A DNA stretch of 64,000 nucleotides from Bacteroidota bacterium (GTDB lineage: Bacteria > Bacteroidota > Ignavibacteria > Ignavibacteriales > Melioribacteraceae), in NCBI GenBank assembly GCA_018818165.1, contig JAHISP010000080.1, positions 1 to 64,000 on the forward strand. The letters are read 5' to 3'. The notes beneath the pieces are model-generated. The model made no database searches, was not told the origin of the DNA, and saw only the letters and a program-made list of their open reading frames with translations. Positions 57,365-61,826 of this stretch are shown here, one piece after another (position 1 is the stretch's first letter; each line of letters opens with the position of its first letter). The position numbers and the translations under genes are program-made.

Positions 57365-57945
57365 GTTACTACCTACTAACAATTTATAAAAAATATTTAA
57401 TTACATATCAGTATCAAATAATAAATTAGTCTCAATTAAGAGTCAAGTATTATTGTTTTTCGTATTTGCAAGATAAGTTAAGGTGACTTTTAAAAGAGAA
57501 TTGAACTTGAAAAATAAAAGAGCAAATCTATATAATTTAGATTTCCTTGCTGTCAATAATATTTATTTGACAATGCTAAATTAAATAAAGGTTGGGAAGT
57601 AACAAAGTAAATCATTTATGTTTTCCAAAATTATTTGTTTTTAGCTTAAATTTGATGTTTTGTGAAAAATTTTTCGCAGTAATAAGACTTTACAATTCGA
57701 TTTTAATTGCAATTGAGTAATATGTAATTTAGTTTTCATAATACAAATTTGTTCTTTTATGTTTATAAACAACTTAACTCCGTTCTGCTTCGATTAATAT
57801 TCGGATTAGAAGGGAATATTAAAAATATTTTATTAATTATCATCCTGTGATGAAGGAATAAATTCTAACATTAAGGGATGGGTGAAAAGCCATAGAATTG
57901 TAATTTCCAGCAATCCCCATCTCTTTTAAAGATGGGGATTTTTTT
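57365..57945. other. Divergent non-coding region with structured leader at its right end
   Basis: The gap separates the minus-strand lyase operon from the plus-strand TM1266-like/TonB-receptor operon and should hold both promoters. Apart from the leader at 57855-57945 and a small hairpin TCATC-CTGT-GATGA at 57840-57853 directly before it, I see only AT-rich sequence. Confidence 0.5.
57855..57945 (+). promoter_or_regulatory. Candidate riboswitch/attenuator before TM1266-like gene and TonB receptor
   Basis: Three mutually dependent helices can be drawn. P1: GGAA (57855-57858) and AATTCTA (57861-57867) with TAGAATT (57893-57899) and TTCC (57905-57908). Terminator: AATCCCCATC (57912-57921) with GATGGGGATT (57931-57940), followed by a T run that ends at the ATG at 57946. 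Antiterminator: AAGGGATGGG (57873-57882), which lies inside the P1 loop, with CCCATCTCTT (57916-57925), ten pairs with one G-U. The last two cannot form together. This is the logic of a transcription-attenuating riboswitch. It does not match a riboswitch class I know; in particular the cobalamin consensus is absent. Confidence 0.65.
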
Positions 57946-58194
57946 ATGGAAAAAAAATATCACACAATAACTATCACAATTTATGATAGGAACTTTGCGT
58001 TCAACAAAGTTGGTGAATTACTGCATGAATATGCTGAGGATATTCATCTTCGTGTCGGTTATCCGGTTCCAGACAAAAACACATCTGTAATATTTATAAT
58101 TGTAACTTTAACTAATAACGAGCTTGGTGCTTTAAGCGGAAAGTTAGGACAAATCGATTCTGTTAAAGTGAAATCCACCACATTAAAATTTTAG
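57946..58194 (+). CDS. TM1266-like small ACT-fold protein
   Basis: 82 residues, matching the small family typified by Thermotoga TM1266 and often annotated as iron-only hydrogenase system regulator: opening MEKKYHTITITIYDRNF, then LLHEYAEDIHLRVGYP, an NTSVIFIIVTLTNNELGALSGKLGQIDSVKVKS core. The fold is ACT/ferredoxin-like and could bind a small ligand or metal. The biochemical role is not established. There is no Shine-Dalgarno sequence: the T run of an intrinsic terminator abuts the ATG. The TonB receptor gene begins ten bases after its stop, so the two form an operon governed by the leader. Confidence 0.8.
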   Translation: MEKKYHTITITIYDRNFAFNKVGELLHEYAEDIHLRVGYPVPDKNTSVIFIIVTLTNNELGALSGKLGQIDSVKVKSTTLKF

Positions 58195-58203
58195 GAGTGT
58201 TTT

Positions 58204-60486
58204 GTGAAATTTATAATTTTTATACTGTTTGCTTATGCAAATATTGTTTTTGCCCAATTTGGAAAATTGAGTGGTACAGTTGTTAACGAAAATAATCAAA
58301 TATTAGTTGGTGCTAATATTTCCGTTAATGAAATTTATTTGAAAACTACTTCCAATTTATCTGGAAATTTTATTTTTTCTAAAATTCCAACTGGAAAATA
58401 TACTTTAACTGTTTCGCATATTGGATATAAACCTAAAATAGATAGTATTTTTATTAAAAATGAAAAAACAATTAATCTTAAAATAGCCTTATCAGTTTCA
58501 CAAATTTATACGGGTGAAGTTAAAGTAATTAGCACAAAATCAGAAAAACTTGAGCGCGATATTTCTCTTCCAATGGAAGTAATTGGTAGCAAAGTTTTAG
58601 AAGCTGGTTCATACATTTCTATTTCCGATGCTTTAAAAAATGAACCAGGTTTAGCTATAGCAAGAGATGGAGTTTGGGGAACTCATGTTTCAATCCGTGG
58701 ATTAAGTCGTAATAATATTGTTACTTTAGTTGATGGAAATCGTGTTGAAACTTCTAATAATCTTGCGGCAGGACTTTCAATGATTGATGTAAATGATATT
58801 GAAAGAATTGAAGTTATTAAAGGCGGTGCCTCTTCACTTTATGGAACTGGTGCAACAGGTGGCGTAATTAATATTCAAACAAAAGGCGGAATTTATAATG
58901 ACTCATTCAAATTGAATGGCTCATTTCTAAGTGGGTTTAACTCTGTAAATAATGGTAGTCTTGGAAATATTTCAGTTAATGCAGGTGCTAGCAATTGGTT
59001 TGCAAAATTAAGCGGCTCCATTAGAAATGCCGAAAACACTGAAACTCCAGAAGGTACTTTGGAAAACAGTCAATTTCATGATAACAATATTTCTGTGTTA
59101 TTTGGGTTTATCCCTTTTGAAAATAATGAACTACAAGTGAGCTATCAAAATTTTAAAGCAACAGATGTTGGAATTCCTGGAGGAAAAACATTTCCTGTAA
59201 CAGCCACAGCGTCTTATCCAATAGAAGAAAGAAAAATGTTTAGCGCTGAATATAAAATTAATAATCTTTCAGAAGTTCTTGCAAACACTTCGGTTAAATA
59301 TTTTCATCAAACATTAAAACGTGAAGTTTTGCTTATTCCAAGCGCAACCGTAAAAATGACACCAGGAGCTGACCATATAATTGATGGAATTCAATTACAA
59401 ACAAATTGGTTATTCGGCAAAAAGCATTGGGTTGTATCTGGCATTGATGCTTGGCAGCGCGAATATAATGGGCATCGAGAAAAAACAATTTCTAACTTGA
59501 ATAAAATTATTGGTGATATTCCTATTCCAAATTCAAAATTTCAGAGTGTTGGAATTTTTGCGCAAGATGAAATTCGTTTAATTGATAATAAGTTAAGTTT
59601 AACGGTTGGTGGAAGATTTGATCAAATTCATATTACTAGTGATGACGCCAGAAATCCAAACTACATAATTGTTAATGGAGTTAGAAATGACTCGCCGCCA
59701 AGTAATCCACAGGCATCTTTTAAGGCATCCAATACTTATAATCATTCTTGGAGCGCAAACATTGGAATGCTTTATAATTTAATGACTAACATTGATTTAA
59801 CACTTAATTTAGCACGAACATTCCGCTCACCTAATCTTGAAGAAAGATTCCAATATATAGATCTTGGTGGAAATATATATTTAGGAAATCCAGATTTAAA
59901 CCCAGAGCAAGGATATTTCTTTGATGCAGGAATTCGCATTTGGAATTCTAATTTTACACTTAAAGGAAATGTATTTTATAACTCATTTTACAATTTGGTT
60001 ATTGATAAAGAAGTAATTTCAGACAGTCTATTTATAAAAAATAATGTTGGTGAGGCGCGTTTATACGGTTTTGATTTTTCTCTTGAATATAATTTTTATA
60101 AAGAGATGGTGCTTTATTCATCAATAGCTTATGTGCGCGGTGAAGACACTGGAAATGATTTGGATCTTCCAGAAATTGCACCGCTTAATGGCAGACTTGG
60201 ATTTCGCACAAAATTGACTGACTTATTTAATTTAAATTTTACAGCATCTGTTTTTGCAGAACAGGATAAAATTGCTCAAGGTGAAGAAAAAACTCCAGGA
60301 TATGCAACTTTTGATTGTTCATTTAACACAACAAAAATTAATTTATCTCTAGCAAATTTGGAATTATTTGCTGGAATTGAAAATATAACTGATGTAGCGT
60401 ACAGAAATCATTTAGCTACAAATCGTGGTTTAATTCGTTGGGAGCCAGGAAGAAATTTATTTATTAAGGCAAAATTAAGTTGGTAA
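58204..60486 (+). CDS. TonB-dependent receptor (siderophore/cobalamin/metal type)
   Basis: 760 residues from GTG 58204, which follows a TAGGAGTG ribosome-binding site. Signal peptide to about VFAQ; carboxypeptidase-regulatory-like domain ~22-100 (GKLSGTVVNENNQILVGANIS); plug ~115-235 (VSIRGLSRNNIVTLVDGNRVETSNNLAAGLSMIDVNDIERIEVIKGGASSLYGTGATGGVINIQTKG); barrel to the end, closing with NITDVAYRNHLATNRGLIRWEPGRNLFIKAKLSW. The size and plug fit FepA/BtuB/CirA-like receptors for iron chelates, cobalamin or other metals. It shares the operon and the attenuator-like leader with the TM1266-like gene, so substrate availability may control it at the RNA level. Confidence 0.9.
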   Translation: MKFIIFILFAYANIVFAQFGKLSGTVVNENNQILVGANISVNEIYLKTTSNLSGNFIFSKIPTGKYTLTVSHIGYKPKIDSIFIKNEKTINLKIALSVSQIYTGEVKVISTKSEKLERDISLPMEVIGSKVLEAGSYISISDALKNEPGLAIARDGVWGTHVSIRGLSRNNIVTLVDGNRVETSNNLAAGLSMIDVNDIERIEVIKGGASSLYGTGATGGVINIQTKGGIYNDSFKLNGSFLSGFNSVNNGSLGNISVNAGASNWFAKLSGSIRNAENTETPEGTLENSQFHDNNISVLFGFIPFENNELQVSYQNFKATDVGIPGGKTFPVTATASYPIEERKMFSAEYKINNLSEVLANTSVKYFHQTLKREVLLIPSATVKMTPGADHIIDGIQLQTNWLFGKKHWVVSGIDAWQREYNGHREKTISNLNKIIGDIPIPNSKFQSVGIFAQDEIRLIDNKLSLTVGGRFDQIHITSDDARNPNYIIVNGVRNDSPPSNPQASFKASNTYNHSWSANIGMLYNLMTNIDLTLNLARTFRSPNLEERFQYIDLGGNIYLGNPDLNPEQGYFFDAGIRIWNSNFTLKGNVFYNSFYNLVIDKEVISDSLFIKNNVGEARLYGFDFSLEYNFYKEMVLYSSIAYVRGEDTGNDLDLPEIAPLNGRLGFRTKLTDLFNLNFTASVFAEQDKIAQGEEKTPGYATFDCSFNTTKINLSLANLELFAGIENITDVAYRNHLATNRGLIRWEPGRNLFIKAKLSW

Positions 60487-60947: not shown

Positions 60948-61826
60948 ATGGAATGGATAGTACTCGCTTTTATGTCTGCAATATTTTCCGCAATTGCGAC
61001 AATTTTTGAAAAGAAAAATCTTTTCACACTTGACGCACTTCAATTTTCTTTTGTTTTGGCACTTTTGAATATGGTTTTTTCAATTCCATTTTTTTATGAT
61101 GTTGATTTTGCAACAATTTCAACCACTAGTTTATTTGTTTTATACTTAAAAACTATTTTAGGCGCACTGGCTTTTTTGTGTGTAATGCTGGCAATAAAAA
61201 ACATGGATATTAGCGGTTCACTACCTTTGCTAGTTTTAACGCCTGGATTAGTCGCAATTTTTGCTTTTCTATTTATTGATGAATCATTAAGCACATTTGA
61301 AATTGTTGGTATGTTTCTTTTGCTGATTGGCACTTACTTTTTGGAAGCAAAACCAGGCTACAATTTACTTTATCCATTCAAGGTTTTTTATAAATCCAAG
61401 TATCATCACTATATAATTTTTGCTCTTCTTTTATTTACTATTACAGCAATTTTGGATAAAGTTTTGCTTAAAAAATATCAATTACCTCCACACGCTTTTC
61501 TTGGATTTCAGCAAATATTTTTGGCTTTTAACTTTTTAATTATTGTTTTATTTGCTAAAAAAAATCCAGTAATGCTTATTAAATCAATCGATAAACAAAT
61601 TTGGGGTTGGATTTTAGTAACATCCATACTTTCTGTTGGATATAGATATACTCAAATTGAAGCTGTTAAACTTGCACCTGTTGCTCTAGTACTTTCGGTT
61701 AAACGAACATCTGTATTCTTTGCAGCAATAGGCGGTGGTAAAATATTTAATGAAACAAATCTGCTCAAAAAAGCTTTGGCCACAGCAATTATGATTGCCG
61801 GCGCAATATTTATTGTAAATAATTGA
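60948..61826 (+). CDS. EamA/DMT-superfamily transporter
   Basis: 292 residues with ten hydrophobic helices arranged as two EamA repeats: the first half starts WIVLAFMSAIFSAIATIFEKKNL, the second IIFALLLFTITAILDKVLLKKYQLPPHAFLG. Typical are SLPLLVLTPGLVAIFAFLFIDESLSTFEIVGMFLLLIGTYFL and APVALVLSVKRTSVFFAAIGGGKIFNE. Members export or import amino acids, nucleotide precursors or other metabolites; the substrate is not predictable. It is transcribed alone, preceded by the terminator region and followed by 290 non-coding bases. Confidence 0.88.
   Translation: MEWIVLAFMSAIFSAIATIFEKKNLFTLDALQFSFVLALLNMVFSIPFFYDVDFATISTTSLFVLYLKTILGALAFLCVMLAIKNMDISGSLPLLVLTPGLVAIFAFLFIDESLSTFEIVGMFLLLIGTYFLEAKPGYNLLYPFKVFYKSKYHHYIIFALLLFTITAILDKVLLKKYQLPPHAFLGFQQIFLAFNFLIIVLFAKKNPVMLIKSIDKQIWGWILVTSILSVGYRYTQIEAVKLAPVALVLSVKRTSVFFAAIGGGKIFNETNLLKKALATAIMIAGAIFIVNN

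Follow-up and report, generated by a model that had tools for sequence, protein, structure and literature searches.

A conserved RNA hairpin, candidate OFF switch, in the leaders of TM1266 operons

What governs the reading of an operon whose first start codon is preceded, without an intervening base, by the T run of a terminator? The question is raised by the window (the whole 64,000-nucleotide stretch of DNA analyzed here), in which the gene of a TM1266-like protein, a candidate RNA-binding factor (57946-58194), is followed on the same + strand by that of a TonB-dependent receptor, the operon's second gene (58204-60486), and by that of an EamA-type transporter (60948-61826). The transporter is the third gene in most relatives; here it lies beyond a 461-nt gap and belongs probably, if not certainly, to the same operon. 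The three genes are consistent with the gene set of the relatives. The intrinsic terminator (57913-57945, + strand) is a GC-rich hairpin followed by a U run: its arms (57913-57922 and 57930-57939) form 10 Watson-Crick pairs around a 7-nt loop (p = 0.010 against shuffles), and T57939-T57945 extend to the base preceding the ATG at 57946. It does not mark the end of an upstream transcript, because the upstream gene (57382-56093) is on the opposite strand. Farther 5' on the + strand, AAGGGATGGG (57873-57882) is complementary over 10 positions, one of them a G-U pair, to CCCATCTCTT (57916-57925), a segment that takes in part of the left terminator arm and of the loop; the duplex has p = 0.024 against shuffles. 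The ten-pair terminator and the antiterminator are both as the original prediction had described them.

The 161-nt leader folds with z = -3.25, surpassing all 200 of its shuffles, and its minimum-energy fold contains a hairpin at 57841-57880 (+ strand) that turns out to be the conserved part of the leader and the candidate sensor. Three short helices, P1 (57841-57846/57875-57880), P2 (57849-57852/57869-57872) and P3 (57855-57858/57863-57866), are separated by two purine-rich 2x2 internal loops and closed by a loop at 57859-57862. The segment 57873-57882 is common to the 3' side of P1/P2 and to the antiterminator, and hence is the switching strand. The original prediction had enclosed that strand in a different helix (57855-57867 with 57893-57908), which is absent from relatives, as is the GGTGAAAAGCC half of its proposed core. 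Its notion of three mutually exclusive helices holds in number and in exclusion, but one of the three is a different helix, 57841-57846/57875-57880.

Sequences upstream of the TM1266 orthologues of related genomes yield the consensus CCU..GAUG-AA-GGA..UCU-RA-CAUY-RR-GGG, that is, CCU/GGG and GAUG/CAUC, separated by two bases on each side, then AA/RA, GGA/UCU and a variable loop of at least 4 bases; its unpaired purines are strongly conserved, and it has paired bases that never vary. A covariance model (R1) built from 9 copies and applied with a cut-off of E < 0.001 finds the hairpin in 16 of the 164 genomes of the window's order, including 7 copies beyond the training set (E 1.5e-12 to 3.3e-4); one further match, inside an open reading frame of genome G104, was discarded as due to chance. 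A sample of 395 genomes of the phylum gave no match outside the order. When 84,980 species genomes were scanned with a pattern, 18 loci were located, five of them outside the order: three in Neomarinimicrobiota, one in G519 and one in Cloacimonadota. With a second model (R2), the hairpin is found in 14 of 245 Neomarinimicrobiota genomes, G519 included, nine or ten of which had no part in model building; a match of R2 within a ribosomal-protein gene of G570 was set aside as another chance hit. The total stands at 31 genomes (16 in the order, 14 Neomarinimicrobiota and one Cloacimonadota). The window's copy scores E 4.2e-14 with R1 and 2.8e-13 with R2. Viral contigs gave no match.

The helices covary. 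Across 31 distinct copies of the hairpin, 97.7% of the cells at the ten core pairs are paired, compared with 94.5 +/- 0.5 in shuffles (0/500 reach the observed value), and 12 doubly changed cells are distributed over four pairs (0/500 shuffles), while partners slid out of register give 0-4. Nearly invariant pairs are exchanged in compensating fashion in G728 and G729, from C-G to U-A in P1 and from A-U to G-C in P3. For the antiterminator, the partner segment was chosen as the best downstream complement, which inflates the pairing counts: 84.9% of cells are formed in 21 copies, with double changes at 7 of 12 pairs (a level reached by 1/500 shuffles) and 22 doubly changed cells (0/500). Because the partner is selected for complementarity, a shuffle test that allows the same choice is fairer; judged against such dinucleotide shuffles, 14 of the 21 copies, each taken singly, reach p <= 0.024 for the duplex. 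Covariation in relatives, one of the checks that the original prediction had proposed, is thereby found for the hairpin and for the antiterminator.

The genes that lie behind the hairpin recur. A TM1266 gene is directly 3' of it in 30 of the 31 genomes, the exception having hydG-hydE in that place, and the usual operons are TM1266-hydE-hydG-(hydF) or TM1266-TonB(-EamA). In the window's order, the hairpin precedes TM1266-TonB, mostly with EamA next; G013 combines the two arrangements as TM1266-hydE-hydG-TonB-EamA, and in G006, the exception, hydG-hydE follow the hairpin and TM1266 is on another contig without one. (The hydE and hydG assignments in the order are above NCBIfam equivalog cut-offs.) In Neomarinimicrobiota the hairpin stands before TM1266-hydE-hydG, often with hydF next, or before TM1266-hydG; in G728 and G729 it stands before TM1266-TonB. 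In the Cloacimonadota genome the order, read from the sequences, is hairpin, TM1266 gene, then hydG-, hydE- and hydF-like genes. The placing of an attenuator upstream of TM1266 and the TonB receptor, which was the core of the original prediction, is supported by this repeated gene association together with conservation in three phyla and covariation of hairpin and antiterminator. Two features of the neighborhood may be recorded. A corrinoid adenosyltransferase-like (cobA/btuR) gene is convergent with and downstream of the TM1266-TonB-EamA operon in several relatives (loci L041, L042, L044, L054 and L055), and feoA- and feoB-like genes are immediately upstream of the five-gene operon of G013 (L046), hinting at an iron link.

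How would such a leader switch? A U-tract terminator close to or at the start codon is present in fourteen copies, and in nine others a hairpin covers the start region instead; in G728 and G729, the Shine-Dalgarno sequence, AAGGAGG, is the conserved hairpin's own 3' strand and lies immediately 5' of the ATG. In six copies (G018, G026, G043, G045, G102 and CL71), neither a terminator nor a sequestering hairpin is clearly seen. Judged by layout, the hairpin state would be the OFF state in all three arrangements. By thermodynamic estimates for the naked RNA, the antiterminator is favored in 22 of 27 copies as long as the right terminator arm is still unmade (by a mean of -4.4 kcal/mol), and the combination of hairpin and terminator in 19 of 27 once that arm is present. 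Such a balance of energies is what a co-transcriptional switch would show, with read-through by default and shut-off when something holds the hairpin. As long as no signal is present, the switching strand would pair with the left terminator arm, and the operon would be read; with the signal bound, the hairpin would be held, its 3' strand would be unavailable, and the terminator would form, its place being taken in relatives by a hairpin that sequesters the start region. The leader RNA is very probably a regulatory OFF switch for TM1266 operons, whatever the factor that operates it.

Switches that work along these lines are familiar. OFF-type riboswitches, including preQ1, SAM and the THF-II folE motif, use terminators or Shine-Dalgarno-occluding platforms, and autogenous leaders, such as the PyrR binding site and the ribosomal protein leaders, are bound by protein. 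With the former the present element shares a conserved hairpin on the 5' side, with a 3' strand that can enter an antiterminator instead, and the presence of transcriptional and translational platforms inside one family; with the latter it shares a short hairpin in the leader of an operon that encodes a candidate binder. Unlike the known OFF-type riboswitches, it matches no Rfam family in sequence and structure: an Rfam 15 search, also proposed with the original prediction, gave nothing at gathering cut-offs for the window and 20 related loci. Nor is it a PyrR site, the resemblance to which (27.8 bits against a cut-off of 54) lies mainly in the terminator; other weak Rfam matches are of low specificity and likewise driven by the terminator. 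A cobalamin-like core, suggested by GGTGAAA and by the cobA/btuR-type gene near several copies, was dismissed: GGTGAAA is not conserved, and there is no Rfam cobalamin match. No paper describing the element was found in the open-access literature. It is a new leader-RNA family that works in a known way.

What, then, holds the hairpin? The first candidate is the product of the adjacent gene. The window's protein is a full-length member of the TM1266 family (TIGR03959/PF21699, structure 2NZC), scoring 78.1 bits against the TIGR03959 equivalog cut-off of 60.8. Its AF2 model (pLDDT 96.7) superposes on 2NZC with Z 16.3 and on the regulatory domains of NikR with Z about 12 over 78-81 residues (identity 4-20%), which makes it a NikR C-terminal/ACT-like fold. 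TM1266 differs from NikR, the C-terminal regulatory domain of which has the same fold, in being without the ribbon-helix-helix DNA-binding half; no DNA-binding domain is seen in the predicted structure. The family is annotated just as a "putative regulator" of the iron-only hydrogenase system, the 2006 structure is of an uncharacterized protein, and no RNA partner or mechanism for it was found in the literature and databases searched. Two subtypes can be distinguished: most hairpin-linked proteins start with HT-TITI and have LRVGYP, and those of G728 and G729 have IGRLGLP and go with a divergent hairpin, so that protein and RNA diverge together.

The distribution bears more directly on the question. 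Of the 164 genomes of the window's order, 16 have the hairpin, and precisely these 16 have TM1266; the element is found with an operon that encodes its candidate binder, as in an autogenous leader. HydG is encoded in 67 genomes of the order, three of which have TM1266; two of these three have the hairpin at hydG, and it is absent from all 64 that lack TM1266. TM1266 is favored as the RNA-binding factor because the hairpin is confined to TM1266 genomes and no TM1266-less hydG genome has it. The co-occurrence, perfect as it is, may reflect only a leader that travels with the TM1266 gene through linkage. That the OFF switch has TM1266 as its bound factor, repressing its own operon, is accordingly put at an even chance. 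TM1266 would then be a stand-alone NikR/ACT-type sensor domain, perhaps carrying a metal or H-cluster-related ligand, and would repress, besides the operon that encodes it, a hydG-hydE operon at another chromosomal location in one genome. The element is a concrete and small candidate target for this protein.

A true riboswitch, in which the hairpin itself binds a small ligand of H-cluster assembly or the TonB substrate, is a tentative second choice. An Fe-CO-CN intermediate, iron or a cofactor might serve as ligand, turning off synthesis (hydE, hydG) or uptake (TonB, EamA). The 5' leader is structured, conserved and covarying, its expression platform is mutually exclusive with the alternative fold, and the layout is classically OFF; unpaired purines are strongly conserved and paired bases invariant, and the same hairpin before biosynthesis and uptake genes is the usual sign of metabolite control. 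The hairpin, however, is unbranched, spans 40 nt, has a variable loop and shows no conserved junction or pseudoknot, and the 64 TM1266-less hydG genomes of the same order are without it. Because the hairpin occurs in the order only with TM1266 (16/16), a protein-bound leader is at least as likely as a riboswitch.

The hydrogenase context invites a more specific proposal. An [FeFe]-hydrogenase domain is encoded in all 16 hairpin genomes of the order. Thirteen of these are without HydG, and every hydrogenase copy read there keeps its H-cluster cysteine motifs; 12 of the 13 are also without HydF, and the remaining one, G039, has a weak HydF match. (G150 is a single-contig genome.) The hairpin could be a dedicated sensor of the [FeFe]-hydrogenase H-cluster, reporting an assembly intermediate directly or through TM1266, the TonB-EamA version controlling uptake of an external precursor where HydG or HydF is missing and the hydrogenases are intact; this we consider doubtful. 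Uptake of a cofactor or precursor by way of TonB-EamA is speculation. In the order at large, 48 of 164 genomes, some nearly complete, have an [FeFe]-hydrogenase domain with HydG and HydF both below threshold. A HydG-less hydrogenase is not a signature of the switch: only 12 of the 48 carry TM1266. There are 36 further hydrogenase genomes without HydG, HydF and TM1266, and therefore the TonB-EamA operon does not generally take the place of HydEFG. The element does tie an uptake system (TonB, EamA) to hydrogenase-gene control in genomes with intact H-cluster ligands in which HydG and HydF were not found, and it would be, within the literature searched, the first described RNA-level control of H-cluster maturation genes.

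Some other factor acting in trans, be it an iron-sulfur or housekeeping RNA-binding protein or a small RNA, might bind the hairpin, with TM1266 merely its commonest target. On general grounds, a compact hairpin with conserved internal loops suits binding by protein, but the strict co-occurrence with TM1266 in the order would then be a coincidence of gene linkage, and we regard this as improbable. That an ordinary intrinsic terminator lies beside a chance hairpin and regulates nothing is most improbable: terminator-like hairpins do arise by chance near start codons, and six copies have no clear platform, but the element is conserved and covaries in three phyla at the same gene, and alternative platforms preserve the same OFF logic.

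Two minor observations concern leader copies and leader extent. In G519 the leader occurs three times. A cassette of two genes, the second of them nucleotidyltransferase-like and possibly AbiE-like, is inserted ahead of the TM1266 operon and has one leader copy before it; another copy stands alone, near unrelated genes (L120, G519:C177; L121, G519:C104). One hairpin of this genome is thus away from any TM1266 gene, and TM1266 has its own hairpin on another contig; the copies resemble a duplication of the leader together with its promoter. In the window, a second hairpin is found farther upstream at 57778-57817, pairing a pyrimidine-rich CTCCGTT.. strand with ..AGAAGGGA. None was seen in other phyla; it is seemingly conserved in the close relatives G026, G027, G033, G149 and G151, and may be a part of the promoter or of the leader.
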